The notes beneath the pieces are model-generated. The model ran no database searches. It was not told the origin of the DNA and worked only from the letters and a program-made list of their open reading frames with translations. A program made the translations under genes and the position numbers. 64,000 nucleotides of DNA from Hyphomicrobiales bacterium (GTDB lineage: Bacteria > Pseudomonadota > Alphaproteobacteria > Rhizobiales > Xanthobacteraceae): the NCBI GenBank assembly GCA_003169835.1, contig PNAI01000048.1, forward strand, positions 120,524 to 184,523, given 5' to 3'. Position 1 is the stretch's first letter. Every line of letters begins with the position of its first letter. This document shows, piece after piece, positions 10,016 through 52,557 of the stretch.

Positions 10016-10027
10016 GGCGGGCCGCGA

Positions 10028-10408: not shown

Positions 10409-10432
10409 TTATTCGTCCTCCCGAATTTTGAT

Positions 10433-11020
10433 TTAGTCCTCCGCCGGTCCGCCTTCCCAGCGTTTGACGACCTTGGTCTCGATGCCAAAAAAATCGAGCA
10501 GGCGTCCGACGGTGTGATTGATGATGTCGTCCACGGTCTTTGGCCGGTTGTAGAACGCCGGCACGATGGGGGCCACGACCGCGCCGATGTCGGCAAGCGT
10601 CGTGAGTGTGCGCAGATGGCCGCCGTGCAGCGGCGTCTCGCGCACGGCCAGCACAAGCCGGCGCTTTTCCTTAAGCACCACGTCGGCCGCGCGTGAGAGC
10701 AGCGAACTGGTCACGCCGGTGGCGATCTCGCTCATGGTCTTGATCGAGCATGGCAGCACGATCATGCCCATGGTCGGAAACGAGCCCGACGAAATCGACG
10801 CACCGATGTCAGCCATCGGATGATTGACCTTGGCGAGTGCGCGCACATCCTTGGGCTTGTAGTCGGTCTCATAAACGAGCGTCATTTCCGCCGACTTGCT
10901 CATGACCAGATGGGTTTCGATGTCGGTATCTTTCAGCAGCTCCAACAGCCGCACGCCGTAGATTGTGCCGGAGGCGCCGGAAATCCCCACCACGAGCCGG
11001 CGCGGAGTCTTGCTGGTCAT
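10433..11020 (-). CDS. UbiX family flavin prenyltransferase
   Basis: Enzyme of 195 residues joining dimethylallyl phosphate and reduced FMN to make prenyl-FMN, the UbiD cofactor. Family motifs are clear: GISGASGTIYG at residues 13-23, LPCSIKTMSEIATG near residue 89, and KEKRRLVLAVRETPLHGGHL. It lies between a TIGR02444-like gene and the CMD/UbiD genes (27 and 24 bp gaps). It probably serves both UbiD proteins of the window, since no second UbiX is visible. ATG 11020 has GGAGAAA upstream. Confidence 0.95.
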   Translation of the reverse strand: MTSKTPRRLVVGISGASGTIYGVRLLELLKDTDIETHLVMSKSAEMTLVYETDYKPKDVRALAKVNHPMADIGASISSGSFPTMGMIVLPCSIKTMSEIATGVTSSLLSRAADVVLKEKRRLVLAVRETPLHGGHLRTLTTLADIGAVVAPIVPAFYNRPKTVDDIINHTVGRLLDFFGIETKVVKRWEGGPAED

Positions 11021-11047
11021 CGGTATTTTTCTCCAATTACTTCCGGT

Positions 11048-11578
11048 TTAGCCATTGCCGGCGTTCTTCGCAAATGCCGTGAGCACCACCTCAAGTGGTT
11101 GCGGCGGGAAGGGGCGGAGGATCGCTTGGTAGGAGGTGAGGTTTGCGCGCGCGGCCTCGACCGGTGTGGGCGCGGACCCGCGGAAGCGGCCAGATTGCGC
11201 CAGTGCGTACATCGCCTCCTGTTGCAGTCGCTCGGCTTCGAGCTCGGCCGTCTTGATGCGGTTGCGGAAAGTCTCGGCTACATCCGGCGTGAGCATTGCC
11301 GGCGGAGTTTTCAGTGCGCGCCGAATTTCGCGTAACGGGATCACCGCTGTGTTGCGCCATACGCCGATCGTGCGATCCAACTCCGCAACTTCGTCCTTGG
11401 TCAGTGTGCGGTTAAGCGATGCATTCCACAGTAGGAAGAATAACAAATTTACATCGACGCCGGCTTCGTCCTGCAATGTGATGCAGGCTGGCGCCACGCC
11501 CGGCACGGCGTAGAATTTAATCGAGAACTGCCAGAACGGCGATTTCGACGGTTGGGTTTTGGCGTCGGCGGCGGTCAT
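11048..11578 (-). CDS. TIGR02444-like (DUF2390) protein of unknown function
   Basis: Predicted cytoplasmic protein of 176 residues. The segment FYAVPGVAPACITLQDEAG followed by VNLLFFLLWNA matches the family signature as I know it. The rest is charged and helical (FRNRIKTAELEAERLQQEAM). No catalytic residues are known for the family, and its usual context is housekeeping, so its place between a Mo hydroxylase and UbiX may be incidental. Gaps of 26 and 27 bp make co-transcription likely. Confidence 0.8.
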   Translation of the reverse strand: MTAADAKTQPSKSPFWQFSIKFYAVPGVAPACITLQDEAGVDVNLLFFLLWNASLNRTLTKDEVAELDRTIGVWRNTAVIPLREIRRALKTPPAMLTPDVAETFRNRIKTAELEAERLQQEAMYALAQSGRFRGSAPTPVEAARANLTSYQAILRPFPPQPLEVVLTAFAKNAGNG

Positions 11579-13956: not shown

Positions 13957-13975
13957 GCTCAAAACTTTCCCTAAT

Positions 13976-15283
13976 TCACGCTCCGGCGACAGCGATTTCC
14001 AGCGGAAACTTGTCCACGCATTCGTGGCCATTCGCAGTCACGATGAATGTGTGGCCAAGGAAAATGCCGAACATGCCGTCGGGCGTGATCGGGTTCGGCT
14101 CGGCCATGATGACCATGCCGGCTTTGAGTACCGCGTCGGCTTCCGTGCCGGTGACGTGTTCGGCGCTGATGTGCGGATTGTCGGTGACGAGATCGATGCC
14201 GTGGCACTGGGTCGGCCGCGACTGCATGCCCTTGTCGCGGAAGAACTTGCTCGCCAGGCGGATTTCCTCGCAGGTCTTGCCGGGTGCGATCTCTTTGACG
14301 ATGCGGTGATAGCCGGGCAGCATGATGTTGTCCCAGAATTTCTTCACCATGTCGGTCGGTGGGCCGATGCAGATGGGCGAGCCGATTTGCGCGGTGTAGC
14401 CGCGATAGCCTGCGGCGAGTTCCATGTTGATCATGTCGCCTTTTTGCAGCACGCGGCCCGACGGCCGAGGGTTGCCGAAGATCATCGCGGGGTTGGCCAT
14501 CGGTGTCGAACCAATAATCAGAAAGTCGATATCGCCGTTGCCTTCGAGGATAGCGGCGCCGGCGGCGGCGCGCAGCTCGTATTCCTTGACGCCCGGCCGT
14601 GCGCGCTCGACCATGGCTTCCATCGCGTTCTGGCAAAGCTCGCCCGCCTTGCGCACGCAGTCGAGCTCTTCCGCGCTATGGATGACCAGCAAGTCATGCA
14701 GGAAACCCTTGGTGAAGACGAGTTCGGCGTTGGGCAGGCTTTCGCGCAAGGTATTGAACTGGTTCACCGGCAGGTAGTCGCCATGCCGTGGGTCGATCTC
14801 CATCAGTCCGATGCGCGCGCGTTCGAGCTTGAGCTCGCGCAGGCGCTCGACCATCACTTGAGCATAGTGCCCGTTGCGGCTGTGGCGCACGTCCTTAACC
14901 GCCACTTTGACATTGCGGCGCACGGCCTCCGCATGGGTGCCGCCCATGGAGTAGATCATGGTCGGCTCGCCGTCGAGCGGAACGAGCACGTAGCAGCACA
15001 GCGCGTGCCATTCCCAATGGCCGGTGAGCCACAGCATGCCGCCGCCGAAACTCCAATGACTGGGGCCGCCGGGGACGATGATGGCGTCGAGCTTGTGCGT
15101 GCGCATTTTTGACCGCAATGCCGCGTAGCGGCGGGCATATTCGGCGGGGGAGAATTGCTCATAGACCGCGTCGCGGTAGTACGGCGTGTCGCGCATGTTG
15201 GCGAAGGGCAGCGACTGGTCCAGTTTGCTGCGGACAACTTCCCAGGGCTGCGGCCCAAGCGGTTTGCGTGGTTGTTCGTTCAT
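13976..15283 (-). CDS. M24 (pita-bread) family protein, creatinase/Xaa-Pro-peptidase-like, atypical metal site
   Basis: Protein of 435 residues with an N-terminal creatinase-like domain (about 1-200) and a C-terminal pita-bread domain. At the five usual metal-ligand positions I read Glu288 (Asp expected), Gln299 (Asp expected), His361, Glu395 and Ala417 (Glu expected). Three substitutions argue against a dinuclear metallopeptidase. They recall creatinase, which works without metal and uses a conserved His (family knowledge). ATG 15283 has GGAG eight bases upstream; the ATG 18 bases earlier does not. It starts five bases after the binding-protein gene, hinting at C-N hydrolysis of the imported compound. 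Confidence 0.85.
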   Translation of the reverse strand: MNEQPRKPLGPQPWEVVRSKLDQSLPFANMRDTPYYRDAVYEQFSPAEYARRYAALRSKMRTHKLDAIIVPGGPSHWSFGGGMLWLTGHWEWHALCCYVLVPLDGEPTMIYSMGGTHAEAVRRNVKVAVKDVRHSRNGHYAQVMVERLRELKLERARIGLMEIDPRHGDYLPVNQFNTLRESLPNAELVFTKGFLHDLLVIHSAEELDCVRKAGELCQNAMEAMVERARPGVKEYELRAAAGAAILEGNGDIDFLIIGSTPMANPAMIFGNPRPSGRVLQKGDMINMELAAGYRGYTAQIGSPICIGPPTDMVKKFWDNIMLPGYHRIVKEIAPGKTCEEIRLASKFFRDKGMQSRPTQCHGIDLVTDNPHISAEHVTGTEADAVLKAGMVIMAEPNPITPDGMFGIFLGHTFIVTANGHECVDKFPLEIAVAGA

Positions 15284-31030: not shown

Positions 31031-32140
31031 ATGAGATTGGGGTACTTCACGATGCCGGTTCACCCGATGGACCGGAGTTGGGTCGAGACGCTCAAAGAGG
31101 ATCGGGAAGCCGTCATTCTTGCCGATAAACTCGGGTTCTACGATGCCTTCGTGGGCGAGCACCTGACTGACGCCTGTGAAAATATCACCAACAGCATGAT
31201 GTTTCATGCATCCCTGATCCCCGAAACCAAGCAGATCAAGCTCGCGACCGGTACGACCAACCTCTCCCACATGCACCCGGTCCTCATTGCCGTGCAGGCA
31301 GCCATGTTCGATCACATGGCTGAAGGCCGCTTTATCTTCGGCGTCAGCCCCGGCGCGCTGACTTCGGATGCGGAGGCGCTCGGTATTCTGGAGCAGGATC
31401 GCAACAAGCTGTTCGCCGAGGCGATCGACGTGATCCTCGCCATTTGGCAGGGCGAGGCGCCTTACAACATCGACTTTCCCGATAACCGCTACAAAGTTTC
31501 AACCCAGCGCACGCAGGCGCTGCATATCGGCGTCGGCTACATGGGCAAGCCCTACCAGAAGCCGCGGCCGGAAATCGTCGGCACGGTGGTGGCGCCGTTA
31601 TCGCCGGGCGTCGTACTGATGGGCAAGCGCGATTTCCATCCGCTGTCGGCGAATTTCTTGCTCTCCAAGCATTTGAAATCGCATTGGGAACACTATTGCA
31701 AAGGCAAAACCGAAGTTGGTGTCGAGCCGGACGTTGCCGACTGGCGGGTGGCGCGCGCGCTCTTTGTTGCCGATGACGACAAAACTGCGGCGCGTTATGG
31801 CCGCACTGATGCTGCCAGCCCGTACGTCTTCTACTATGAGCAGATGCTGGCCAAGATGAAGCGCGGCAAGCGGCTCTACGTGTTCAAGAGCCACAAGGAT
31901 CAGCCGGACGAAGAGATCACGTTCGATCATGTGATGAACAATTGCGTGATCTACGGCAGCGTCAACAAGGTGGTCGAGGAGATTCTTGCGTTGCGCGCGG
32001 AGGTCGGCGATTTCGGCGAGCTGGTGTACGCCGGAATGGATTGGGTCGAGCCCGCGCTTGCCAGGCGCTCAATGCAATTGATGGCGGAGCAGGTCATGCC
32101 ACGCGTCAATGCTGCGATCGGCAAGTCTGCTGCGGCGTGA
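31031..32140 (+). CDS. LLM class flavin-dependent oxidoreductase
   Basis: Bacterial luciferase-like TIM-barrel enzyme of 369 residues, using FMNH2 from a partner reductase or F420. The start MRLGYFTMPVHP, then DKLGFYDAFVGEHLTDACEN and RFIFGVSPGALTSDAEALG, is close to limonene 1,2-monooxygenase/alkanal monooxygenase-like members. It probably adds oxygen to an imported compound. It leads the plus-strand set LLM, bicupin, EutA, TctC-like, Fe-S protein. No flavin reductase gene is adjacent. Confidence 0.9.
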   Translation: MRLGYFTMPVHPMDRSWVETLKEDREAVILADKLGFYDAFVGEHLTDACENITNSMMFHASLIPETKQIKLATGTTNLSHMHPVLIAVQAAMFDHMAEGRFIFGVSPGALTSDAEALGILEQDRNKLFAEAIDVILAIWQGEAPYNIDFPDNRYKVSTQRTQALHIGVGYMGKPYQKPRPEIVGTVVAPLSPGVVLMGKRDFHPLSANFLLSKHLKSHWEHYCKGKTEVGVEPDVADWRVARALFVADDDKTAARYGRTDAASPYVFYYEQMLAKMKRGKRLYVFKSHKDQPDEEITFDHVMNNCVIYGSVNKVVEEILALRAEVGDFGELVYAGMDWVEPALARRSMQLMAEQVMPRVNAAIGKSAAA

Positions 32141-32223
32141 GCCCGGCGCGCGCTGCAGCGCGATAGCGCCACTTCACAATTGGTTCTGCGGGACTATGAT
32201 GCTCCCTCACGCCGGAGGATATT

Positions 32224-33315
32224 ATGGACGCCGTGAACAAGCCCAGAATGCTGCTCGATCCCTACCTCTCCTGGGCGGAGAAAGAAGGTGTGCCGATCAC
32301 CGAGGACTTCGGCGTCGATCTGCTTAAAGTGCCGATCGCGCACTGGCCGCGGATGGGCGTTGAGGGCGGCATCGTGCATCTCAAAGGCCGCGGCGATTTC
32401 GTGTCGGTGTTCGTGCTCGATCTTGCACCTGGCGCGAAAACTGAACCGCAGAAACATCTCTTCGAAGAAGTTGTCTACGTGCTCTCCGGCCACGGCAGCA
32501 CCGTTGTCGAAACCAGTGACGGGCACAACCACAGCTTCGAATGGGGACCCAAAAGCCTATTCGCGCTGCCGCTCAACTGCCGCTACCAGCATTTCAATTC
32601 GAGCGGGCGCGAGCGCGCACGGCTGAGTTCGACCAACAGTCTGCCGACCATGCTCAATCTGTTCCACAACGAAGCGTTCGTGTTCGACAATTCATTCCAG
32701 TTCATGGACCGGCAGGGCGCGCCGGGATTTTTCGCGGGCGAGGGCAATTTCATCCCGGTGCGTCCGGGCCGCAATATGTGGGAGACCAACTTCATTCCGG
32801 ATCTTGCGGCGTTCGAACTCAAGGCCTGGGACCAGCGCGGCGCCGGCGGCTCAAGCATGATGTTCATCCTGGCGGAGGGCACCATTCATGCGCATTCCTC
32901 GCAGATGCCGGTCGGCACCTATAAGAAAGCGCATCGGCATGGCGCCGACTTCCATGTCTTCGCCGTCACAGGACACGGCTATTCGCTGTTTTGGTACGAC
33001 GGCGAGAAGGATTTCATCCGCGTCGATTGGCAGCATGGCGTGGTGTTCGCGCCGTCCGACCAGATGTTCCACCAGCATTTCAATACGTCGGAACATCCTG
33101 CGCGCTATCTCGCGGTCGCCATGGGCAGCCTGCGTTATCCGTTCACCGCGAACAAACGGCGCGTCTTCATGGGCATGGATGTGAATGTCAAGGATGGCGG
33201 CTGCCAGATCGAATACGAGCACCAGGACCCGCGTATCCATAAGATTTTTCTGAGCGAGCTTGGCAAGCACGGCGTCAAGTCGGGCATGGCGAAGTTCGTC
33301 AACGAAGCGGCGTAG
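32224..33315 (+). CDS. bicupin domain protein (annotated elsewhere as ethanolamine ammonia-lyase-activating)
   Basis: Protein of 363 residues with two cupin barrels. The first has EPQKHLFEEVVYVLSGHGS and CRYQHFN, the second YKKAHRHGADFHVFAVTGHG and DQMFHQHFN; the His/Glu sets could each bind a metal. Cupins of this length are sometimes named 'ethanolamine ammonia-lyase-activating' because of eutA neighbours, and here eutA follows by 23 bp. A direct activation role is not shown by sequence; a metal-dependent dioxygenase or isomerase is equally possible. ATG 32224 has GGAGG at 32215-32219. Confidence 0.85.
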   Translation: MDAVNKPRMLLDPYLSWAEKEGVPITEDFGVDLLKVPIAHWPRMGVEGGIVHLKGRGDFVSVFVLDLAPGAKTEPQKHLFEEVVYVLSGHGSTVVETSDGHNHSFEWGPKSLFALPLNCRYQHFNSSGRERARLSSTNSLPTMLNLFHNEAFVFDNSFQFMDRQGAPGFFAGEGNFIPVRPGRNMWETNFIPDLAAFELKAWDQRGAGGSSMMFILAEGTIHAHSSQMPVGTYKKAHRHGADFHVFAVTGHGYSLFWYDGEKDFIRVDWQHGVVFAPSDQMFHQHFNTSEHPARYLAVAMGSLRYPFTANKRRVFMGMDVNVKDGGCQIEYEHQDPRIHKIFLSELGKHGVKSGMAKFVNEAA

Positions 33316-33338
33316 GGCTGCCCGTCAGCAACTCACAT

Positions 33339-34853
33339 ATGCACGATCTCGAATTCGAGCACGTCCACGTCGATGACGCCGCCGAGACGCGCGAGATTCG
33401 CGAGGCGATCTGGGCTGCGGACAACGTCGAGCTCACGACCGTTGGCATCGACATCGGTTCATCGACCTCGCACTTGATGTTTGCGCGGGTGCATTTGTCA
33501 CGCCTGGCGACTGGACTCTCGAGCCGTTTCGTCGTGGTGGAGCGGAAGATCCTTTGGCAATCGCCGATCCTGCTCACGCCCTATCTGCCGGATTTCACTA
33601 TCGACACGGCAAAGCTCGCCGCGTTCATCGCGCAGAGTTACGCCGCCGCCGGACTTGAGCGTGCGAAGGTGGACTCAGGGGCGGTGATTCTCACCGGCGA
33701 GGCGCTCAAACGCAAGAACGCGCGCGCCATCGCCGATTTGTTCGCGGAGGAGGGCGGTAAGTTCGTGTGCGCCTCCGCAGGCCATCACATGGAATGCCAG
33801 ATGGCGGCGCATGGATCGGGTGCGGTCAAGATTTCGGCGAGCAAGGCTAAGACCGTGCTCAACGTCGATATCGGCGGCGGTACCACAAAATTCGCGCTGA
33901 TCCGCAATGGCGAATTGATCGCGAGTGCTGCGATCGCCGTCGGTGGCCGGCTGATCGTCGAAGGGCCTGAGGGGCTCACCCGCGTCGAGGAACCCGCCAT
34001 CGATATCGCGCGCAGTCTTGGTATCGATCTGGCACTTGGCCGAAAACTTGCTGCGCGCGATCGGAGGAGACTCGTTACACGCATGAGCGAACTGATCATT
34101 GCGATGATGAATCGCGCGGCCCCGGATGTGCTCATAAAAAAGCTGCTGGTGACCGAGCCGTGGCCATACCAACTTACAGACATCGCGATCGATGCCGTCA
34201 CGTTCTCCGGCGGCGTTGCCGAATATCTCTATGGCCGTGAGACCCAGCAGTTCGGTGATCTTGGCTTCGATCTCGCGCATGAGCTGCGCCACGCGCTTTC
34301 GCATCATCGCATTGCGGCCGAGGTCTGGGATCCGGGGCAGGGCATTCGCGCCACGGTGATCGGGGCTGCGCAATTTTCGGTGCAGACCAGCGGTAATACC
34401 ATCATGATTGCCGACCGCAAGCTGCTGCCGCTGCACAATCTGCCGGTGCTGGCGTGCCCGTTCGATCTGTCGGGCGACATCGATGAGTATGCCGTGGCGG
34501 CGCAGGTGCGCGCGGCATTGGCGCAATCGGACATGGAGGATGGCGCCGCTGCGATTGCGCTCGCGTTCCGCTGGCAGGGCGATCCGCTGCACACGCGCTT
34601 GGCCGCGCTGGCCGAGGGCATCTGTGCCGCTGTGCCGAAGACCATTGCGGCGGGGTTGCCGCTGGTGCTGCTGATTGATGGCGATATCGGACTAAGTCTT
34701 GGCCGTGTCATCCATTTCGAGACGACGCCCGGCTCCAATGTCATCGCCATCGATGGCGTTCAGCTCAAGCAATTCGATTATGTGGATGTCGGAGCCGTCA
34801 TCGATGTCAGCAACGTCGTCATTGTGATTATCAAGTCGCTGTTGTTCAGATAA
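33339..34853 (+). CDS. eutA: EutA-like ethanolamine ammonia-lyase reactivating ATPase
   Basis: Actin/Hsp70-fold ATPase of 504 residues. Phosphate loop 1 is TVGIDIGSSTSHLMFARV (residues 34-51), phosphate loop 2 is VDIGGGTTKFAL near residue 176, and the adenosine motif is TFSGGVAEYLYG. EutA removes damaged adenosylcobalamin from ethanolamine ammonia-lyase (established). No eutB, eutC or other B12 enzyme gene lies in this window, so its client is not visible here. It sits between the bicupin and a TctC-like binding protein. Confidence 0.88.
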   Translation: MHDLEFEHVHVDDAAETREIREAIWAADNVELTTVGIDIGSSTSHLMFARVHLSRLATGLSSRFVVVERKILWQSPILLTPYLPDFTIDTAKLAAFIAQSYAAAGLERAKVDSGAVILTGEALKRKNARAIADLFAEEGGKFVCASAGHHMECQMAAHGSGAVKISASKAKTVLNVDIGGGTTKFALIRNGELIASAAIAVGGRLIVEGPEGLTRVEEPAIDIARSLGIDLALGRKLAARDRRRLVTRMSELIIAMMNRAAPDVLIKKLLVTEPWPYQLTDIAIDAVTFSGGVAEYLYGRETQQFGDLGFDLAHELRHALSHHRIAAEVWDPGQGIRATVIGAAQFSVQTSGNTIMIADRKLLPLHNLPVLACPFDLSGDIDEYAVAAQVRAALAQSDMEDGAAAIALAFRWQGDPLHTRLAALAEGICAAVPKTIAAGLPLVLLIDGDIGLSLGRVIHFETTPGSNVIAIDGVQLKQFDYVDVGAVIDVSNVVIVIIKSLLFR

Positions 34854-34898
34854 CATCCAGGTGCGGTCAATCGCCTGCAAGGTACGGGGGAGAGCGAA

Positions 34899-35909
34899 AT
34901 GCCGTGGAAAGCTGCTGCCGTAGTTGTCGCCGCATTGATGCTGCCGGCACAGGCGCGCGCGCAACCGGTGGCGGATTTCTATCGCGGCAAACAAGTGCAG
35001 ATGCTGATCGGCTACAGCGCCGGCGCGGGATACGACCTTTATGCGCGCGTGCTCGCGCGACACCTGGGAAAACACATTCCCGGCAATCCCACAGTCGTGC
35101 CGCAGAACATGCCGGGCGCGGGCAGTTTGAAGCTGGCCAACTTCCTCTACAGCCAAGCGCCTAAAGACGGTTCGGTTGTGGGCATGGTCAGCCGCGGCAT
35201 GGCGACCGAGCCGCTGTTCGGCGATGCAAAATTCGATCCGACCAAGTTTGCCTGGCTCGGCAGCATCACGAGTGAGGTGAGCGTGTGCGCGACTTGGCAC
35301 ACGTCACCGGTCAAATCGTGGGCCGATATTACGGCGAAGGATTTCACCCTGGGCGGGATGGGGTCGGCCTCCGAAACCGATACGTTCGCGTCGCTGATAC
35401 GAAATATGTTCGGCGCCAAGTTGCGGCTGGTCACTGGCTATCCGGGCGGCAACGACGTCAATCTCGCGATGGAGCGCGGCGAGGTGGACGGCCGCTGCGG
35501 GTGGTCATGGAGCAGCATCAAGAGCCAAAAGACCGCGTGGCTGAAGGAGAAGAAAATCAACATCGTGGTGCAGATGGGAATGTCGAAGCATCCCGATCTG
35601 CCGAATGTGCCGTCGCTGATCGAACTCGCGAAGACCGACGAGCAGCGCCAGATGCTGCGGCTGATTTTCACCCAGCTGATCCTGGGCCGGCCGTTCATGG
35701 CGCCGCCGGGCATCCCTGAGGATCGCAAGATGGCACTGCGCCGCGCGTTCGATGACACCATGAAGGATCCAGAATTCCTGGAAGAAGCCGCCAAGATCGA
35801 TCTGGAGATTTCGCCGGTCGGGGCGCAGGCGATCGATGAATTGCTTGCGGAGCTCTACAAGACGCCCAAGAGCGTGGTCGAAAAGGCCGCAGCCGCGATC
35901 TCGAAATGA
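34899..35909 (+). CDS. TctC/Bug-related substrate-binding protein
   Basis: Periplasmic binding protein of 336 residues with a clear signal peptide ending ...LPAQARAQ. QMLIGYSAGAGYDLYARVLARHLG and NMPGAGSLKLANFLYSQAPKDG match the tripartite tricarboxylate receptor group, in a subfamily distinct from the Bug genes at 25129 and 44481. No TctAB transporter is nearby. Start ATG 34899 has GGGGGAGAG upstream. It is 45 bp after eutA and 60 bp before the Fe-S gene, so it likely shares their transcript. Confidence 0.88.
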   Translation: MPWKAAAVVVAALMLPAQARAQPVADFYRGKQVQMLIGYSAGAGYDLYARVLARHLGKHIPGNPTVVPQNMPGAGSLKLANFLYSQAPKDGSVVGMVSRGMATEPLFGDAKFDPTKFAWLGSITSEVSVCATWHTSPVKSWADITAKDFTLGGMGSASETDTFASLIRNMFGAKLRLVTGYPGGNDVNLAMERGEVDGRCGWSWSSIKSQKTAWLKEKKINIVVQMGMSKHPDLPNVPSLIELAKTDEQRQMLRLIFTQLILGRPFMAPPGIPEDRKMALRRAFDDTMKDPEFLEEAAKIDLEISPVGAQAIDELLAELYKTPKSVVEKAAAAISK

Positions 35910-35969
35910 TAGCTGCCACTTCTGTCGAAGCTGCTCGCGCAAGCGCGGATTTTGCGTTATTGTTTATCC

Positions 35970-37310
35970 ATGATTAATGCCGGATTCGAGGAAGCTTTTG
36001 CTGGCCGCATAGGCGACATGCTCGATGCCTGCACGCGCTGCGGCGCGTGTTTCACGGCGTGTCCGATCGCGGCGCCTGCCGGACTTGGCGCGGCAGACCC
36101 GAAAGCCGTGATCGACGGCGTGCTCGATATCGTGCGTTTCGGAAAAGGGCCCGAAGAGTCGCAGAAATGGGCGAAGGCCTGCATGCTTAGCGGCGAGTGC
36201 ATCAAGGCCTGCGACTACGGCGTCAATCCGCGCTTTCTGTTGGCGGTGGCGCGCGTGCAAATGGCCAAGCACACGAACGAGGCGCCGGACCGGCGCAAAA
36301 ACGGTGTGCAAACATTTCGCAAATTGGCGGAAGACGTTGGCGTGCTGTCGCGCCTGCAGTTATCCGATGAAGCCTTGGAGCGGCTCGGCCAGAAGCCGTC
36401 CAGCAAGCCTGCGTCCAATGAATTGCCCGACGTGGTGTTCTACACCGGTTGCAACGTGCTCAAGACACCGCACATTGCGCTTCTGTGCCTCGACATCATG
36501 GATGCGCTCGGCGTGAGCTACCAAGTCATGGGCGGGCCGACTCATTGCTGCGGTGTGATCCAGCTGCGCGCGGGCGATACCGAGACGTCCTCGCGCCTTT
36601 CCGGCAATACGATCGGCAAACTCTCGCAATCGAAATCCGGCCAGGTGCTGGCGTGGTGCCCAAGCTGCTATGTGCAGTTTTCCGAGAACATGTTGCCGAC
36701 ATTCGAGCGCGCTACCGGAACAAAGCCGTTCGACATGACGCCGTTCATGCGCTTCCTGCGCGGCGAGATCGAACGCTTGCGGCCCTTCTTGCGCAAACGG
36801 GTGCCGATGCGCATCGCGCTGCACCGTCATCCGGGCGTGGCCGGTGTCGCAGAAGCCGCCGAGGAATTGCTGCGCGCGGTGCCCGGAATCGAGATTGTGG
36901 AGCTCCACCAGCCCGCGGTTGGCCTGCAAAGCGTCAATCTCGCGACGCTGCCCGGCTACAAGAAGGAACTTCAGCTCAAGGAGTTGGAAGCCGCGCGCGC
37001 GGCGGGTGTGGATGCGCTGGTGGCGGTCTATCACTCCGACCATCGCGAATTGTGCGCGCACGAACGCGACTGGCCGTTCCGCATCATCAATGTGCTGGAG
37101 ATCGTCGGCGAGAGCATGGGGTTCAAGCAGGACGACCATTACAAGCATCTCAAGGTGATGCAGGACGCCGACGCCATCGTAAAGGATTCTGCCGACCTCA
37201 TTGCGCGGCACGGCCTCGACGCCGAGACCGCGCGCCGTGTGGTCATGAACGGAATGCTCGGCGACCAGCCGCTGCCGCTGCAGGGGCACGCGAAGCCGGC
37301 GGCGGAATAG
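35970..37310 (+). CDS. HdrD/GlcF-like iron-sulfur and CCG-domain protein
   Basis: Redox protein of 446 residues. The first 4Fe-4S motif has Cys21, Cys24, Cys27 and Cys31. The second has Cys71, Cys77 and Cys81, with Ser74 where a Cys is usual. Two cysteine-rich (CCG-like) modules follow, with YTGCNVLK and HCCGVIQL, then WCPSCYVQF. Such proteins accept electrons from flavoprotein oxidases or handle disulfides (as in glycolate oxidase or heterodisulfide reductase). ATG 35970 is preferred; an in-frame TTG at 35952 adds an unlikely leader. No flavoprotein partner (GlcD-type) is adjacent. Confidence 0.87.
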   Translation: MINAGFEEAFAGRIGDMLDACTRCGACFTACPIAAPAGLGAADPKAVIDGVLDIVRFGKGPEESQKWAKACMLSGECIKACDYGVNPRFLLAVARVQMAKHTNEAPDRRKNGVQTFRKLAEDVGVLSRLQLSDEALERLGQKPSSKPASNELPDVVFYTGCNVLKTPHIALLCLDIMDALGVSYQVMGGPTHCCGVIQLRAGDTETSSRLSGNTIGKLSQSKSGQVLAWCPSCYVQFSENMLPTFERATGTKPFDMTPFMRFLRGEIERLRPFLRKRVPMRIALHRHPGVAGVAEAAEELLRAVPGIEIVELHQPAVGLQSVNLATLPGYKKELQLKELEAARAAGVDALVAVYHSDHRELCAHERDWPFRIINVLEIVGESMGFKQDDHYKHLKVMQDADAIVKDSADLIARHGLDAETARRVVMNGMLGDQPLPLQGHAKPAAE

Positions 37311-39584: not shown

Positions 39585-40829
39585 CTAGGCGCTGCGATAG
39601 AGCTTGGTCATCACATATTCGCGGTGGCCGAGCGCTTCCGCCGCGGTCAGGCGGCCGTTGGCGGTGCGCACGATCATCTCGATCAGCGCGTCGCCTGCCC
39701 GCGGGATGGTCAAGTTGCGGCGCAGAATACCGGAGACGTCGACGTCGACGTGCTCGGACATGGTGCGGACGGTCCGGGGATTGCCGGTGATCTTGATCAC
39801 CGGCACGATCGGATTGCCGATCACGTTGCCCTGGCCGGTGGGGAAGGTGTGCACGGCGTAGCCCGCGGCCGCCATCAGCGTGACGCATTCGGCCGCCGCC
39901 GATGATGTGTCCATGTAATAAAGACCGGGGCCTTTGCGCGGTGCCTCGGCCGGCGCCAACACATCGATGTATTTGCATTCGCGGCCGATCTTTTCGAGAT
40001 TGCCGAGTGCCTTCTCCTCGATGGTGGTGAGCCCGCCGGCGATATTGCCCTTGGTCGGCTGCGAGTCGGAAAGGTCGTTGGTCTTGTGCGCCTGGATCAC
40101 TTCGTTTTCATAGGCCTGCCACACCTTCATCCATTTCTCGCCGACCTTCTTGTTTGCAGCGCGCGCCTTGGCAAGGTGTTCGGCACCGGTGATTTCCGAT
40201 GTTTCGCCGAAAACGCCATAGATGCCCTGTGGGATCAGCTTGTCGTACATGTTGCCGACAGTCGGGCAGGACGCGAGGCCGGTGGTGGTGTCGCTCTCGC
40301 CGCACTTGGTCGAGACCCACAGTTCCGAAATGTCGCATTCTTCGCGCTGCAGTTCAGACGCCCATTGCAGAAAATCCTTGGCCGCGCGCGAGGCCTGGGC
40401 GATGGTCATCAGATCGCCGGTCCCTTCGATGCCGAATCCGACGACGGGCTTTCCGGTCTTCTTGATGCCGTCAACCACGCGCTTGGTCCATTGGTCCTCG
40501 ATGCCGATGACGACGACGGCCGCGACATTCGGATTGGCGCCGGTACCGATGAGGGTGCGGAAGAACAATTCGAGGTCTTCGCCGAACTGGAGCCGGCCAT
40601 AGGCGTGGGGCAGCGCGAGCGTGCCCTTGATGTTGTTGGCCACCGCTTCGCAAGCGGCGTTGGATAGGTCATCGAGCGGAAGGATAATGACGTGGTTGCG
40701 CACGCCGACGCGATCGTTCTCGCGCCGCCAGCCCCAGAAGCTTGGGCTTTGGCCGTTGCTTTTCGCCGGAACGGATTTCTTCGCTTTGTCGTTCGCTTTG
40801 CTTTTTGATTTGATTTTTTTGCGCGCCAT
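39585..40829 (-). CDS. UxaA family hydrolase, large part (altronate/galactarate dehydratase-like)
   Basis: Protein of 414 residues corresponding to the catalytic C-terminal domains of UxaA/GarD-type dehydratases, which eliminate water from sugar acids. Typical parts are [20 protein letters not shown], the cysteine motif [19 protein letters not shown] and [16 protein letters not shown]. The lysine-rich N-terminus ([15 protein letters not shown]) is unusual. ATG 40829 follows GTG codons that overlap the SAF-gene stop, so the start is uncertain by four codons. With the small SAF gene it forms a split enzyme; the true substrate may be another hydroxy acid. Confidence 0.88.
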
Positions 40830-40834
40830 GATGC

Positions 40835-41122
40835 TCACCACCTTTTCGTCTTCACGTTATGAACATGCAGATGCGCGCCTTTGGCGATCTTGGCCTTGGC
40901 GATGCCGATGTCCTGGCCATATTTCCAGATTGTGTCGCCCTTCTTGATATCGACCAGAGCGATCTTGTGGCCGATCGGAACATCCATCTTAGCTTTGAGC
41001 TTGAAGGATGAATTGTCGGCCGTGACCACGCACAGCATATCGGTGCCGGCCTTCAATCCCTCGATGACCACCACGCCGACGGTGTCCTTTTTTTCGTGAA
41101 CCAGGAGTTGCGGAACTGCCAT
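40835..41122 (-). CDS. UxaA family SAF-domain small subunit
   Basis: Protein of 95 residues matching the N-terminal SAF domain of altronate/galactarate dehydratase: [34 protein letters not shown] and [23 protein letters not shown] 41122 has GGGGAAA upstream; the open frame continues to 41509 but that part runs over the nitroreductase gene's 3' region and is not coding. It lies directly before the large-part gene, so the two polypeptides probably assemble. Confidence 0.9.
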
Positions 41123-43040: not shown

Positions 43041-44375
43041 ATGCGCGACATTCGCGTTGCTGCAGCCATCGCCTGGAGTGTGCTGGTCTTGTTGCTTGGC
43101 CTTGGGCCGGCGGCGGCCGAGAAGCGCGTCGCGCTTGTGATCGGCAATGGCGTCTATAAGAGCGCAAGCAAGTTGACCAATCCGACCAACGACGCCAAAG
43201 CCATCGCGGGCATGCTGCAAGTCGCGGGCTTCGATACAGTCGAACTGTATGAAAATCTCGGCATCAGGGAACTGCGGCGTGCGATCAGCAATTTTTCCGC
43301 TGCGGCGCGGGATGCGGACATGGCTATCGTGTATTACTCTGGCCACGGCATCGAGGTCGACGGCGTCAATTATCTGATTCCGATCGACGCCGTGCTTGAG
43401 ACCGATGGCGACGTCACCTACGAAACCTTTTCGCTCGACAATCTGCTCAAGGTTTTAGAACCGGTGAAGCGATTGCGTCTTGTCATGCTCGATGCCTGCC
43501 GCGACAACCCGTTTGCGCGCAGCATGAAGAGGTCGGTCGGAACGCGCTCGGTCGGACGCGGACTCGCCGCGATCGAGCCTACGAGTGTGAATACGCTGAT
43601 CGGATTTGCAGCCAAAGCGGGCTCCTACGCCCTCGATGGCGAGGGCGTGAACAGTCCTTACGCTACCGCTGTGTTGAACAACGTTGCGACGCCGGGGCTC
43701 GATCTGCGTATCGCTTTCGGGCGGGTGCGCGACGAAGTGCTGAAATCCACCATGAACAAGCAGGAGCCGTTCGTCTACGGTTCGCTCGGCGGTTCGAACA
43801 TATCGATTGTCGATGCTCCCGCGGCATCTAACACGGGCACAATACCTCCGTCGCAAGCGCCGGTGCCGTCGGTCGACCGTGCCGCGCAAGCGTGGGCGGC
43901 AACCAAGGATACGACGAGCCCTGCGATCCTGGAGGATTTCATCAAGCACTTCGGATCAACCGTTTATGGTTCGATGGCTCGCGCGCGGCTGCAAGAATTG
44001 CGAGCTGCAGCGCCGAAGCCGCCAGATAAAGTCGCCGTGGCTGCTCCAACCGTCCGTTCGGGCGCACAAGACGGAGTCAAAGGACCCTATGGCGCCATTG
44101 CCTATAGCCCGGGCAACGGCACTTATGGGTCCGCCCTACAATACGCCAACCGGCCGCTGGCCGAACAGCAAGCCATGCGCGAGTGCGGTAAAAGCGATTG
44201 CCAGATTGCAGCATGGTTCTTCAACAGTTGCGGCGCTTTGGCTACAGACAGTGATGGCGCCTGGGGTGCGGACTACAATAATGATGAGCAGCGGGCGCGG
44301 GCTCTCGCGCAGGCGCGTTGTGCGAAAGAAGGCGGCGCAAACTGCAAGATTGTGTATTCCATCTGTTCGCAATGA
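43041..44375 (+). CDS. caspase-family (C14) protease with C-terminal DUF4189
   Basis: Secreted protein of 444 residues. Signal peptide ends ...LGPAAAEK. The caspase-like p20 domain (27-250) has KRVALVIGNGVYKS, catalytic His102 in YYSGHGIE and Cys153 in MLDACRDNPF. A Pro-rich linker follows. The C-terminal 95 residues (YGAIAYSPGNGTYGSALQYA, four conserved Cys) are DUF4189. Metacaspase-like proteins of this kind are common in rhizobia; roles in cell death or envelope stress are proposed, not shown. It stands alone with 129 bp before it. Confidence 0.9.
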   Translation: MRDIRVAAAIAWSVLVLLLGLGPAAAEKRVALVIGNGVYKSASKLTNPTNDAKAIAGMLQVAGFDTVELYENLGIRELRRAISNFSAAARDADMAIVYYSGHGIEVDGVNYLIPIDAVLETDGDVTYETFSLDNLLKVLEPVKRLRLVMLDACRDNPFARSMKRSVGTRSVGRGLAAIEPTSVNTLIGFAAKAGSYALDGEGVNSPYATAVLNNVATPGLDLRIAFGRVRDEVLKSTMNKQEPFVYGSLGGSNISIVDAPAASNTGTIPPSQAPVPSVDRAAQAWAATKDTTSPAILEDFIKHFGSTVYGSMARARLQELRAAAPKPPDKVAVAAPTVRSGAQDGVKGPYGAIAYSPGNGTYGSALQYANRPLAEQQAMRECGKSDCQIAAWFFNSCGALATDSDGAWGADYNNDEQRARALAQARCAKEGGANCKIVYSICSQ

Positions 44376-46958: not shown

Positions 46959-47849
46959 ATGATGATTCAATCCGAAGTAAATCGCATTAGCCGGTTCGCG
47001 CTCTCGTCCAACGGGCTTCGTTTGCATTATTTGGAATATGGTTCGAGGTCTGATTCTCAGACGTCGGTGATTTGTCTGCCGGGATTGACCCGCTCGGCCG
47101 AGGATTTCGATCGCCTTGCGCGCGTTCTCGCCGCGGCCCCGAATGGGCGCGGACGAAGGGTGCTGGCTTTGGATTATCGCGGGCGCGGCGGCTCAGACTG
47201 GGACATGGATTGGACGCACTACAATGTGCAGGTCGAACTCCAGGATATTCTGACGACGCTCGTGGCAGCCGAAGTGACGAACGCAATATTTGTCGGAACG
47301 TCGCGTGGCGGGCTGCACATCATGCTGCTCGGCGCGCTGCAGCCATCATTGATGTGCGCCGCCGTCATCAACGACATCGGGCCGGTGGTCGAAATGGCCG
47401 GCCTCATGCGCATCAAATCCTATGTGGGTAAATTGCCGCCGCTGACGTCGTGGAAGGACGCCATTGATTTCATCCGCCAGGCCGCGTGCGCGCATTTCAT
47501 CGATGTCAGTGAGGACGATTGGGAAACATGCGCGCGGCAGACCTTTGCCGAGGAGAATGGAAAATTTCAGTTGCGGTACGATCCAGCGCTCATGTGCACG
47601 CTTGAGGCGATCACGCCTGATGCGCCCATGCCGCAGCTTTGGCCACAGTTCGAGGCGCTGGCGGGGATTCCGCTTATGGGAATTCGCGGCGAGAATTCCG
47701 ATATTCTCTCAGCCGATACATTTGCGGAAATGGGTCAGCGTCACCCGCATTTCGAGTCGTTCGTCGTCAAGGGCCAGGGGCACGCGCCACTGCTCCTCGA
47801 CGCCCCGACGATTTCGGTGATCGCAGAATTTATCGAACGCGTTGCTTAA
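46959..47849 (+). CDS. alpha/beta hydrolase
   Basis: Hydrolase of 296 residues. VICLPGLTRSAEDFDRLA forms the oxyanion region. The nucleophile elbow is FVGTSRGGLHI with Ser in GTSRG, and the terminal His is in VKGQGHAPLL. The DYRGRGGSDWDMDW segment is typical of the haloperoxidase/esterase-like group. It follows the decarboxylase-like gene and its stop overlaps the converging Mo-hydroxylase stop (TTAA at 47846-47849). It may hydrolyse an ester or ring-fission product of the imported acid. Confidence 0.87.
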   Translation: MMIQSEVNRISRFALSSNGLRLHYLEYGSRSDSQTSVICLPGLTRSAEDFDRLARVLAAAPNGRGRRVLALDYRGRGGSDWDMDWTHYNVQVELQDILTTLVAAEVTNAIFVGTSRGGLHIMLLGALQPSLMCAAVINDIGPVVEMAGLMRIKSYVGKLPPLTSWKDAIDFIRQAACAHFIDVSEDDWETCARQTFAEENGKFQLRYDPALMCTLEAITPDAPMPQLWPQFEALAGIPLMGIRGENSDILSADTFAEMGQRHPHFESFVVKGQGHAPLLLDAPTISVIAEFIERVA

Positions 47850-50167
47850 GCCGCGTTTGTTTGCATCGCGCGCCACACGCGCGCGGGCGTTGCCGGCATT
47901 TCAACGTCTTTGACACCGTATTGCGCGAGAGCGTCGACGATGGCGTTGATGATGGTGGGCGGGGCGCCGACGGTGCCGGATTCGCCTGCGCCCTTCACGC
48001 CGATCGGGTTGCTGCGGCAGCGATCGGGTAATTCATGCAGATCGAACGACGGCATGTCATCGGCGCGCGGCATGCAATAATCCATGAACGATCCCGACAA
48101 TGGCTGGCCGGATATCGGTTCGAATTCGACTTTTTCCATCAGGGCCTGCCCGATGCCCATGGCGAGTCCGCCGTGGATTTGTCCCTCGAACAGCAACGGA
48201 TTGATGATGATTCCGGAATCATCGACTGCGTTGTAGCGGGCGAGCTCCACGCGTCCGGTTTCCGGATCGACCTCGACTTCGCAAATGTGACAACCGTTGG
48301 CGAAATTCGGCCGCGTCGGGGTGAATGTGCCGACCGCTTCGAGGCCTAAGCCGAATTCGGCCGGCCAGCCCACGGGCGCGAACGTGCGTTTGACGAGGTC
48401 GACGAGGCGGATGGTCTTGTCGGTGCCGACAACTGTGAATTTGCCTTCGGCAAACGCGATATCGCCGGCCGCGGCTTCGAGGACATGCGCGGCCATCTTT
48501 TTGGCTTTCTCGATCAGAACATCGGCGGCGTTTTTGAGCGCCGATCCGCCGATGGTCATGCTGCGCGAGCCGTAGGTGCCGCGGCCGAAACCGACCTGGT
48601 CGGTGTCGCCCTGGATCATGCGCACGGTGGAAAAATCGACGCCCAGCCATTCCGAGACCATTTGCGCGTAGACGGTCTCGTGTCCCTGGCCGTGGCTGTG
48701 GGTGCCGGCAAGCACCGTCACCGTCGCGTTTTCGTCGAAGCGGATTTCCATGCGGTCGTTGAATGGCCCGCAGATCTCCATGAAATAGGCCATGCCGCGC
48801 CCGCGCAGCTTGCCGTTTTTCTTGGAGTCCGCGCGGCGCTTGGCAAAGCCTTTGAGGTCGGCGGCTTCGAGCGCCATGTCCATCACGGCTTCATAGTTGG
48901 CGCTGTCGTGCACAAGCATGAGCGGCGTCTTATAAGGGACCGCAGGCGCCGTGATTAGATTGCGCCGGCGCAGTTCGGCGGGATCGATGTTCATTTCGCG
49001 CGCGGCCGCATCGACCAGCCGTTCCATCACATATATGGCTTCCGGTTTGCCGGCGCCGCGATACGGTCCGATCGCGGTCGTATGCGTGTACACGGCGCGC
49101 AGGATGATATGCGCTGCGGGAATGGCATAGACATTTGTGTAAGCCATCGAGCCCAAGCCTGCCGGCACGCTCGCGCTATAAGAAAGATAGGCGCCTTGCG
49201 CGTAGTCGGTGGATACGCGCAGGCCCAAGAATTTTCCGCCAGCATCGAGCGCGAGCGAAGCTTCGCTCACACAATCGCGCCCGTGGGTGTCGCTCACGAT
49301 GGCTTCCGCGCGCTCGGCGACCCATTTCACCGGGCGGTTTATTTTGCGTGCTGCCCACACAACGAGCGCGTCTTCGGGAAACACGCCGCCCTTCATGCCA
49401 AAGCCGCCGCCGACATCGGGAGAAACGACCCGGAAATTGACCTCGGGTTCGTGAAAAATTGCGCCGGCCAAGACAGTGCGCATTTTATGCGGCACTTGCG
49501 AGGAGCTATGAAGCGTCGAGCGTCCCATCGCGGCGTCATGCATGCCGAGCGATGTGCGCGTCTCCATGGAATTGGCCGAGAGTCGATTGTTGACGATTTT
49601 GAGCGACACCACATGCGCGGCATTCTTGAATGCGGTGTCGGTCGCGGCCTTTTCTCCGCGCTCCATCGCAAACCAGATGTTGTTGGGCGCGCCTTCCCAC
49701 ACCAGCGGTGCGCCGGGTTTGGCGGCCTGATCGGTCGCGATTGCGGCCGGAAATTCCTCGTAATCGACCCGGATCAGCTCGGCGGCATCGCGCGCCTGGT
49801 GCAAAGTTTCGGCAACGACGAACGCGACCGGATCGCCGACGTGCCGCACGACGTCATGCGGGAGGATCGGATGGAGCCCCATGAAGGCTTTGAGCGGTCC
49901 GCCGAAAGCGATCGGCGGCGCGCCGCAGGGCAGGCTGCCGAGGTTTTCCGCTTTGACATCGGCGCCGGTCAATACAACGAGCACGCCGGGCGAAGCTTCG
50001 GCCTTGGCGACATCGATGGACTTGATGCGTGCGTGCGCGTGCGGGGAGCGCAGCACGTAGCCGTAGGCCAGACCTGGCGGCGCGAAGTCGTCCACATAGC
50101 GCCCGCTGCCTCTGAGGAAGCGCGGATCTTCGGTCCGCGGCACCGGTTGCCCGATCCCGAATTTCAT
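47846..50167 (-). CDS. xanthine-dehydrogenase-family molybdopterin-binding (large) subunit
   Basis: Mo-cofactor subunit of 773 residues. The N-terminus MKFGIGQPVPRTEDPRFLRG is normal. GGGFGMKGGVFPEDAL, the Mo-site loop PYRGAGKPEAIYVMERLVD and catalytic Glu near residue 729 in GVKGAGESG follow. ATG 50167 has AGGAG ten bases upstream. It is divergent from a paralogue with a 71-bp gap between the two starts. No small or medium subunit gene is present. The loop differs from CoxL-type AYxCSFR, so it is not CO dehydrogenase form I. Confidence 0.92.
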   Translation of the reverse strand: MKFGIGQPVPRTEDPRFLRGSGRYVDDFAPPGLAYGYVLRSPHAHARIKSIDVAKAEASPGVLVVLTGADVKAENLGSLPCGAPPIAFGGPLKAFMGLHPILPHDVVRHVGDPVAFVVAETLHQARDAAELIRVDYEEFPAAIATDQAAKPGAPLVWEGAPNNIWFAMERGEKAATDTAFKNAAHVVSLKIVNNRLSANSMETRTSLGMHDAAMGRSTLHSSSQVPHKMRTVLAGAIFHEPEVNFRVVSPDVGGGFGMKGGVFPEDALVVWAARKINRPVKWVAERAEAIVSDTHGRDCVSEASLALDAGGKFLGLRVSTDYAQGAYLSYSASVPAGLGSMAYTNVYAIPAAHIILRAVYTHTTAIGPYRGAGKPEAIYVMERLVDAAAREMNIDPAELRRRNLITAPAVPYKTPLMLVHDSANYEAVMDMALEAADLKGFAKRRADSKKNGKLRGRGMAYFMEICGPFNDRMEIRFDENATVTVLAGTHSHGQGHETVYAQMVSEWLGVDFSTVRMIQGDTDQVGFGRGTYGSRSMTIGGSALKNAADVLIEKAKKMAAHVLEAAAGDIAFAEGKFTVVGTDKTIRLVDLVKRTFAPVGWPAEFGLGLEAVGTFTPTRPNFANGCHICEVEVDPETGRVELARYNAVDDSGIIINPLLFEGQIHGGLAMGIGQALMEKVEFEPISGQPLSGSFMDYCMPRADDMPSFDLHELPDRCRSNPIGVKGAGESGTVGAPPTIINAIVDALAQYGVKDVEMPATPARVWRAMQTNAA

Positions 50168-50238
50168 GATTGTCCATCTCCTGCGGCCGCGATATCCCAT
50201 CTAACGCAAAAATCAATCGGACCACAATCGAGGGTGAA

Positions 50239-52557
50239 ATGGGTGAATTCGCGATCGGCCAGGTGGTGTCACGGTTCGAGGACCCGCGGCTGCTGCGGGG
50301 CGGCGGGCGCTATGTGGACGATATCGTGCTGCCCGGCATGGCGTTTGGGCACGTACTGCGCTCCCCTCACGCCCATGCGCGCATTCGCAAGATCGATGTT
50401 ACGGCCGCCAAGGCTGCGCCCGGAGTGCTAGCTGTGCTGACCGGCGCCGACTGGATCGCCTCGGGCTGGGGCGATCTGCCGGTCCCCGGCGGCATGAAAC
50501 GCCGCGATGGCTCGCCCAACTACCGCCCGCGCTATCCAGCTCTGGTCAAGGATCGCGTGCGCTGGGTCGGCGATTATGTTGCGTTCGTCGTGGCGGAGAC
50601 CAAGCATCAGACCGCCGACGCCGCCGAACTCATAGAAGTCGATTTCGAACCGCTGCCTGCCGCGGTTGGGACCGCTGAGGCCGCGAAGCCGGGCACGCCG
50701 TTGGTGTGGGACGACTGCAAGGACAATATCTGCTTCGTTCAGGTCTTCGGCGATAAGACCGCGACCGATGCGGCGTTTGCGAAGGCGGCTCATATCGTCA
50801 AGCAGCATCTTGTGATCAACCGCGTGACCACCGCATCGATGGAGCCGCGCGGCTCGATCGGCGACTACAACGCAGCCGACGATCACTACACGATCTACAC
50901 CACGTTGCAGCGTGCGCATCCCTATCGCAACGAACTTGCCAAAAACGTGCTCAAGGTTCCCGAGCACAAGGTGCGCGTTGTCGCAGGCGATATCGGCGGC
51001 AGCTTCGGCATGAAGTCGGCGATCTATAATGAGGTTGCACTGGTGCTGTTGGCTTCCAAAACGATCGGCCGGCCAGTGAAATGGATGAGCACCCGCTCGG
51101 AAGCTTTCTTGAGCGACGCGCAGGCGCGCGACAATGTCGTCGATGCGGAGATGGCGCTCGATAAGGACGGCATATTCCTCGGGTTTCGTGTGGTCTCGAC
51201 CGTCAATGCCGGCGCCTTTCTGCAATCGGGCTTCCAGGCCTACACCGCAAACCTCGGCACGCTCGCAGGCGTGTATCGAACGCCCGCCATGTACGTAGAC
51301 TCGACGGCGGTGTTCACCCATACGCATCCGTGCCGGCCATATCGCGGCAACGGGCGGCCGGAAGCCGCCTATGTGATCGAACGCATGGTCGATGTTGCTG
51401 CCGCCGAGCTGAAGATGGATCCGGCCGAGATCAGGCGGAAAAACTACATCGCGCCGGAGGCGATGCCGTTCAAGACCAGTCTCATCTTTACCTATGACTC
51501 CGGCGAGTTCGACAAGACCATGGAGCTGGCGCTGAAGCTTGCAGACATTGCGGGATTCGAATCGCGGAAAAAAGACGCGCACAAACGCGGCAAGCTGCGG
51601 GGCTTAGGGCTGTCCAACACCATCGAGCGCGCGGCCGCGGTGGGTCTCGAGGGTGCCGAAATCCGCTTCGATCGCTCAGGCACCGTGACGATGCTCTCCG
51701 GCAGCATCAATCAGGGCCAGGGCCACGAGACCGTGTTCAAGCAGATCGTCGCCGACCGGCTCGGGATTCATCCCAACGACATCGAGTATATCCAGGGCGA
51801 CACCGATAAGGTGTTCTTCGGCGAAGGCACCGGCGGCTCGCGTTCGGCCACCATGTCGGGGTCGGCTTTCCACAATGCCTCGGAGAAAATCATCACCAAA
51901 GCCAAGGCGATTGCCGCGCACAATCTCAAAGTGGATGCCGCCGACGTCAATTTCGCCGAAGGCATCTTCTCCAGCGCCAAGACCAACCAGACCATCACGA
52001 TGAAGGAGGTCGCGGAGGCCGCGGTGAATCCCGCGAAGCTGCCGAAGAACATGGAGCCGGGGCTCAACGCCAATGCGGTGTACACCGCGCCGGTCGAGAA
52101 TTTCCCGAATGGCTGCCATGTGTGCGAACTCGAAATCGACCAGGACACCGGCGAGGTTGAGATCGTGCGCTACAGCGTGGTGGACGACGTCGGCACCGTG
52201 CTCAATCCGCTCTTGCTCAAAGGCCAGATCGTCGGCGGCGTGGCGCAGGGCGTGGGGCAAATCCTCATGGAGGACATTCATTTCGACGCGGAGGGCCAGC
52301 TCGTCACGGGCTCGTTCATGGACTACGCGATGCCGCGCGCGCGCGATTTGTCGATGGTCGAGGTCAAATGCAATCCGGTGCCGACCAAGACCAATCCGCT
52401 CGGCGTCAAGGGTGCGGGTGAAGCCGGTTGCGTCGGCGCGCTGCCGGCGGTGGCCAATGCGCTGGTGGATGCGCTCGCAGAATTCGACGTGCGGCACATC
52501 GAGATGCCGGCGACGCCGGAAGTGGTGTGGCGCGCGATGCGGAATGGAAGGGGTTGA
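50239..52557 (+). CDS. xanthine-dehydrogenase-family molybdopterin-binding (large) subunit
   Basis: Mo-cofactor subunit of 772 residues. Start MGEFAIGQVVSRFEDPRLLR at ATG 50239 has GAGGG upstream; the frame opens at 50170 but that part covers the neighbour's leader. IGGSFGMKSAIYNEVAL, the loop PYRGNGRPEAAYVIERMVD (Asn where the neighbours have Ala) and the catalytic Glu near residue 728 in GVKGAGEAG are present. QGQGHETVFKQIVADRLG is typical. It is divergent from its paralogue at 47846-50167. No FAD or 2Fe-2S subunit gene follows. Confidence 0.92.
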   Translation: MGEFAIGQVVSRFEDPRLLRGGGRYVDDIVLPGMAFGHVLRSPHAHARIRKIDVTAAKAAPGVLAVLTGADWIASGWGDLPVPGGMKRRDGSPNYRPRYPALVKDRVRWVGDYVAFVVAETKHQTADAAELIEVDFEPLPAAVGTAEAAKPGTPLVWDDCKDNICFVQVFGDKTATDAAFAKAAHIVKQHLVINRVTTASMEPRGSIGDYNAADDHYTIYTTLQRAHPYRNELAKNVLKVPEHKVRVVAGDIGGSFGMKSAIYNEVALVLLASKTIGRPVKWMSTRSEAFLSDAQARDNVVDAEMALDKDGIFLGFRVVSTVNAGAFLQSGFQAYTANLGTLAGVYRTPAMYVDSTAVFTHTHPCRPYRGNGRPEAAYVIERMVDVAAAELKMDPAEIRRKNYIAPEAMPFKTSLIFTYDSGEFDKTMELALKLADIAGFESRKKDAHKRGKLRGLGLSNTIERAAAVGLEGAEIRFDRSGTVTMLSGSINQGQGHETVFKQIVADRLGIHPNDIEYIQGDTDKVFFGEGTGGSRSATMSGSAFHNASEKIITKAKAIAAHNLKVDAADVNFAEGIFSSAKTNQTITMKEVAEAAVNPAKLPKNMEPGLNANAVYTAPVENFPNGCHVCELEIDQDTGEVEIVRYSVVDDVGTVLNPLLLKGQIVGGVAQGVGQILMEDIHFDAEGQLVTGSFMDYAMPRARDLSMVEVKCNPVPTKTNPLGVKGAGEAGCVGALPAVANALVDALAEFDVRHIEMPATPEVVWRAMRNGRG

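Follow-up and report, generated by a model that had tools for sequence, protein, structure and literature searches.

A 64,000-nucleotide stretch of a genome from a Hyphomicrobiales bacterium (referred to below as the window) encodes a EutA-family ATPase directly downstream of a bicupin. EutA is named in databases as a helper of the vitamin-B12 enzyme ethanolamine ammonia-lyase; the protein in the window, like its counterparts in dozens of related soil bacteria, occurs without the lyase and nearly always with a bicupin, a two-domain cupin predicted to bind metal. Our comparisons argue that the ATPase and the bicupin are very likely partners. We also favor, with less assurance, the fuller reading that the ATPase serves the metal site of the bicupin by loading or reactivating it. 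The bicupin itself would most likely be a mononuclear-metal oxygenase for the cleavage of aromatic or related substrates. The metal step taken by itself, ATPase-driven loading or renewal of the bicupin metal, is argued by analogy and we regard it as evenly balanced. The window's genome is a metagenome-assembled genome (MAG) that is ~83% complete; most of the compared genomes are also MAGs, and their genes were called by a simple script.

Pairing of the EutA-family ATPase with a bicupin

The bicupin adjoins EutA in most loci in which both flanks were covered, and the remaining neighbors vary. The exceptions are loci cut by contig ends and the type C EutA (one of three types defined below) of genus g12 and of the window's own genome, in which the type C bicupin is encoded elsewhere. 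Among 61 relatives, eight genomes have a full-length EutA, and the identical eight have the bicupin family. In a set of 296 genomes from the family, EutA accompanies the bicupin in every one of the 38 genomes that have it, and EutA was present without a bicupin in two: a 79%-complete MAG (G571) and a genome (G581) that encodes a canonical EutA with EutB adjacent. Across a 398-genome sample of the phylum, the window's genome was the only one with a bicupin match; the other 397 gave none. Fisher tests of EutA versus bicupin gave p values of 6e-46 by genome and 7e-9 by genus, neither of which fully corrects for shared ancestry. One pair of type A and one of type B lie ~23 kb apart on plasmids of Phyllobacterium zundukense and three Sinorhizobium species, and thus the modules occur in other families too. 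A literature search, outside of which most subscription papers fell, gave no paper linking EutA with a cupin partner.

A phylogeny of bicupin-linked EutA had been proposed as a check in an earlier note on this DNA. In a tree of 33 EutA proteins the bicupin-linked clade is separated from canonical EutA (99/99) and splits into types A (that of the window), B and C. The bicupin tree contains groups A (99/98), B (100/100) and C (100/99), which match the EutA types. When scored per genome, the presence of EutA and of bicupin of the same type agreed in 39 of 39 genomes for type A (25 having both and 14 neither), in 34 of 39 for type B and in 29 of 39 for type C, counts that leave out 13 short bicupin stretches. 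In genus g12 the type C EutA and bicupin are unlinked and yet both are retained in eight genomes. The window's genome encodes two further full-length EutA paralogues (contigs C24 and C37), and by sequence the window holds one of three paralogous modules of EutA ATPase plus bicupin in that genome. That the bicupin and the window-type EutA clade behave as a single module is well supported by these comparisons.

The earlier note had proposed that this EutA either services a distant enzyme or has a new client, and it listed the bicupin as a mere neighbor. Adjacency, co-occurrence and matching clades point to the bicupin as the new client. The distant enzyme fared poorly. As the note had said, no EutB or other B12 enzyme was found among the window proteins scanned with Pfam, and EutB gave no match in the whole incomplete genome, EutC not having been searched genome-wide. 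EutB is present in only five of the 22 genomes that encode bicupin-linked EutA, never near EutA, and is absent from the other 17; hence we rejected a distant EutB as the client of the window EutA. In the phylum sample canonical EutA was found in five genomes, in all five with EutB adjacent.

A separate observation concerns the lyase itself. In the phylum sample (Pseudomonadota) 74 of the 79 EutB genomes lack EutA; among the genomes sampled, a lyase that does without EutA seems to be the norm. This agrees with the experimental finding that the Acinetobacter baumannii enzyme works without EutA (PMC9426561).

Sequence features of the two partners

The partner genes and their motifs, all within the window, are as follows.

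32224-33315, plus strand: bicupin, type A, the proposed EutA client (Cupin_2, E 4e-7; EutA adjacency across loci; co-occurrence)
32932-32940, plus strand: HxH putative metal motif of the bicupin, H237 and H239 (invariant in 139/139 full-length bicupins)
33070-33078, plus strand: second HxH putative metal motif (HQH) of the bicupin, H283 and H285 (invariant in the same 139/139)
33339-34853, plus strand: EutA-family ASKHA ATPase, type A (PF06277, E 2.5e-111; clade apart from canonical EutA)
33339-33368, plus strand: His-containing N-terminal tail of EutA, MHDLEFEHVH (absent in the canonical EutA proteins examined)
33444-33464, plus strand: ATPase phosphate-1 motif of EutA, GIDIGSS (G36, D38, G40 and S41 invariant apart from gaps)
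33867-33887, plus strand: ATPase phosphate-2 motif of EutA, DIGGGTT (D177, G179-G181 and T182 in 89/89)
34206-34217, plus strand: adenosine motif of EutA, SGGV (S290-G292 in 89/89)

The window EutA matches PF06277 at 373 bits (cut-off 27) over profile positions 2-474 of 475 and hence at full length. Against the NCBIfam equivalog model the score was 302 bits at best, about half the cut-off of 598 and thus below equivalog level. The ASKHA ATP-binding motifs are intact throughout the EutA set (89 sequences) and invariant apart from gaps. An AlphaFold model of EutA had a pLDDT of 60 and was usable for fold class alone; a fold search with this low-confidence model returned ASKHA proteins.

The four bicupin histidines H237, H239, H283 and H285 (window numbering) lie in two HxH motifs of the C-terminal cupin. 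At position 244, the usual site of the cupin Glu, the 139 full-length sequences have His, Cys, or a residue that is hydrophobic or aromatic, and never Glu. The bicupins have a His triad without Glu, as do the 3-His bicupin dioxygenases (gentisate class). No conserved His pair was found in the N-terminal cupin. Pfam detects the N-terminal domain, and the putative C-terminal cupin domain is indicated by its motifs plus weak profile matches to cupin PGI. The scores against models of known dioxygenases were far below equivalog level: up to 21 bits for the gentisate_1_2 model (cut-off 442) and 36 bits for aminosalicylate dioxygenase (cut-off 650).

The family shows a striking expansion in genome G031 (loci L101-L114), where match counts indicate ~25 bicupins in 3.3 Mb, several of them in tandem and beside TctC-type binding proteins; other relatives have 2-9 per genome. 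Tandem bicupins were also found at L039, L047, L050 and L103. At L047 (10876-11850) a second, diverged tandem bicupin that lacks the His cluster sits beside an intact copy and is possibly a non-catalytic subunit, judging from its sequence. L115 has a similar diverged tandem copy of low score.

Possible metal handling, a proposed mechanism and its rivals

In each pair type a His-rich N-terminal tail is present on exactly one partner, and the other partner has a median of zero His residues. In type A the tail is on EutA (MHDLEFEHLH, median of three His), in type B on the bicupin (MHDxxGxxHWHEP, median of three) and in type C again on EutA (HTLADHxLGxDxAHxHDGxADHDHD, median of seven). Six loci from four genera have a HupE/UreJ permease gene close to EutA. 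One of them is the type B locus in the genome of the window (L039:7547-8062, PF04955, E 1.4e-53); no such gene was found at loci with a bicupin but no EutA. A type B pair of Phyllobacterium has NikR and a NicO nickel transporter as immediate neighbors. Among transporters of this kind, metal preference is often correlated with a nickel or cobalt enzyme encoded nearby (PMC2667541). No urease or hydrogenase genes were recognized in the stretches with nickel/cobalt transport genes, stretches that were not exhaustively annotated. From these gene contents nickel or cobalt would be the favored metal, with iron possible.

The genes near EutA/bicupin pairs encode LigXa-type Rieske oxygenases, ferredoxins, UbiD with UbiX, CMD and DUF2390 proteins, amidohydrolases, class II aldolases, thiamine pyrophosphate enzymes and TctC transport proteins, the last of which lie near a bicupin or EutA in 28 loci. 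UbiX, CMD and DUF2390 genes lie beside type C pairs in L052 and L055, and UbiD is present in L055 and absent from L052. Some neighbors presumably resemble 4,5-dihydroxyphthalate decarboxylase. As judged from their sequences, these neighbors indicate catabolism of aromatic or related acids. Hydantoinase/oxoprolinase-like genes, assigned by inspection of the sequence, are directly downstream of or near pairs at L231:9086-13132 and L049:13018-16671; they would encode a further catabolic enzyme that uses ATP and contains an ASKHA domain.

Canonical EutA carries out an ATP-driven exchange of damaged cobalamin in ethanolamine ammonia-lyase. By analogy, the present ATPase would have no link to that lyase and the bicupin would be its dedicated client, cleaving its substrate at the invariant His cluster of the C-terminal cupin. 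EutA would bind the bicupin and open it through ATP binding and hydrolysis, which would allow metal loading or the replacement of a dead centre. The metal ion would be held by the His-rich tail that one protein of each pair carries. The pairing, matching clades, co-occurrence, ATPase motifs, His cluster, tail pattern and the nickel/cobalt genes beside some pairs are read directly from the genomes, and from them we infer that the two proteins interact physically, that EutA loads metal or reactivates the site, which metal this is, and that rings are cleaved. In its most specific form, which we put forward tentatively, an ASKHA ATPase of the EutA family, with a His-rich tail on either partner, would load or renew nickel, cobalt or iron in an expanding family of four-His bicupin oxygenases, a few helpers serving up to ~25 clients per genome.

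Several observations weigh against this proposal. The nickel/cobalt genes lie beside a minority of pairs and not at the window's own locus. The perfect type A agreement is partly linkage because adjacent genes are inherited together, and types B and C gave 15 discordant genome entries, mostly from incomplete MAGs. Genome G031 has three EutA loci for its ~25 bicupins. Finally, the bicupin is only remotely related to known dioxygenases, which makes its reaction conjectural, and the AlphaFold model built from seven close relatives had a pLDDT of 34 and was unusable.

It is unlikely, in our estimate, that the two proteins share a pathway without contact. In that case the EutA clade would be an enzyme that uses ATP, for example a small-molecule kinase, and that produces or consumes the substrate of the bicupin. 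Many sugar and acid kinases have the ASKHA fold and the gene neighborhoods are catabolic, as this explanation expects. However, the nearest relatives, the canonical EutA proteins, act on proteins, and three EutA paralogues for up to ~25 bicupins in varied catabolic clusters fit a shared helper better than a pathway enzyme. The His-rich tails would also be left unexplained. These tails, one per pair, together with the nickel/cobalt permeases beside EutA, likewise speak against a general folding or assembly chaperone for bicupin oligomers that has no metal role. We consider such a chaperone slightly less probable still, even though Hsp70-like chaperones share the ASKHA fold and the tandem bicupins at the four loci named above suggest hetero-oligomers.

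Reactivation of a B12-dependent enzyme encoded elsewhere, the bicupin link being historical, seems improbable and is the least favored of these explanations. Canonical EutA does reactivate a B12 enzyme, cobalt transporters could also supply cobalamin synthesis, and a B12-binding domain is encoded in all ten genomes searched. However, the B12-binding matches fall in frames of 1243-1415 and 660-860 residues, which by size look like MetH and mutase-type proteins. The absence of EutB from most genomes of the clade, the prevalence of EutB without EutA in the phylum and the A. baumannii experiment (PMC9426561) argue against such a client, and co-occurrence and matching clades point instead to the bicupin.

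The window locus and relation to known systems

The pair lies in a plus-strand set of five genes (31031-37310) in the order LLM, bicupin, EutA, TctC and Fe-S/CCG protein, all placed as the earlier note had described (the last as Hdr-like) and supported by Pfam. The intergenic spacings of 83, 23, 45 and 60 bases are consistent with a single transcription unit. The other genes of the set and a further module of the window are as follows.

31031-32140, plus strand: LLM-class flavin oxidoreductase (PF00296, E 1.5e-30), first gene of the set; no homologue recurs at other EutA loci
34899-35909, plus strand: TctC-like solute-binding protein (PF03401); such genes are common near bicupins
35970-37310, plus strand: Fer4 plus CCG protein, HdrB/GlpC-like; not conserved at other loci
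8339-11578, minus strand: UbiD-CMD-UbiX-DUF2390 module (Pfam and gene order), 21 kb from the EutA/bicupin locus; its genes recur beside type C pairs in L052 (UbiD missing) and L055

The LLM, TctC and Hdr-like genes were rejected as module parts and, on comparison of the loci, are incidental to it: unlike the bicupin, they are not conserved EutA neighbors. An Rfam scan of the window and five loci gave just a tRNA and no riboswitch. Elsewhere the window encodes a caspase-domain protein (43041-44375; PF00656, E 2e-35) with a DUF4189 domain, three CoxL-type molybdenum hydroxylase large subunits (11605-14031, 47846-50167 and 50170-52557, two of them back to back on opposite strands) and an altronate/galactarate-dehydratase-type enzyme (39585-41122) encoded in two parts, one a SAF-domain protein and the other a large subunit.

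Cupin oxygenases are usually thought to acquire their metal unaided. If a dedicated ATPase is involved, some would depend on an activase in the way that B12 eliminases do, and the system would be an enzyme-activation system not described before, an ATP-dependent metal-centre activase for cupins acting on a new family of catabolic metalloenzymes, possibly nickel- or cobalt-using. The family is strongly expanded in some uncultured soil bacteria of the Xanthobacteraceae type and is carried on plasmids of plant symbionts. A dedicated bicupin ATPase would also explain a set of existing EutA annotations whose functional assignment is probably wrong.

The window ATPase resembles canonical EutA (the ethanolamine ammonia-lyase reactivating factor, PF06277) in its full-length profile match and retained ATPase motifs, and differs in its well-separated clade, its N-terminal tail, its sub-equivalog score and the bicupin that takes the place of the EutB partner. 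DdrA/PduG and GlmL/MutL also carry out ATP-using reactivation of enzymes with damaged cofactors; their clients are B12 enzymes and they belong to other families. For XylT-type reactivation, the titles and abstracts listed gave no ATPase precedent. HypB, UreE/UreG and CooC/CooJ are nucleotide-driven nickel delivery systems that have His-rich stretches and adjoining HupE/NicO-type permeases. The present pairs share with such metallochaperones the His-rich stretch in one partner and the nickel/cobalt uptake genes (six HupE/UreJ loci plus one NikR/NicO locus). However, the NTPases among them are P-loop proteins whereas EutA has the ASKHA fold, and the likeness is thus a working analogy rather than membership.

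Among cupins, nickel quercetinase QueD is a dioxygenase that retains a metal-binding Glu; the present bicupins lack the usual cupin Glu, and their metal would be nickel, cobalt or iron. We know of no dedicated ATPase for QueD. QueD is able to use nickel (PMC4416304). The present bicupins also resemble the described 3-His class of ring-cleaving bicupin dioxygenases (PMC4019311), namely the gentisate, salicylate and 1-hydroxy-2-naphthoate 1,2-dioxygenases: a length of 360-430 residues, an HxH motif plus distal His, no canonical Glu and adjoining ring-hydroxylating oxygenases. The present proteins differ in their fourth invariant His, their EutA companion, their very remote sequence and the C-terminal location of the metal cluster, which in salicylate dioxygenase is in the N-terminal cupin (PMC4019311).

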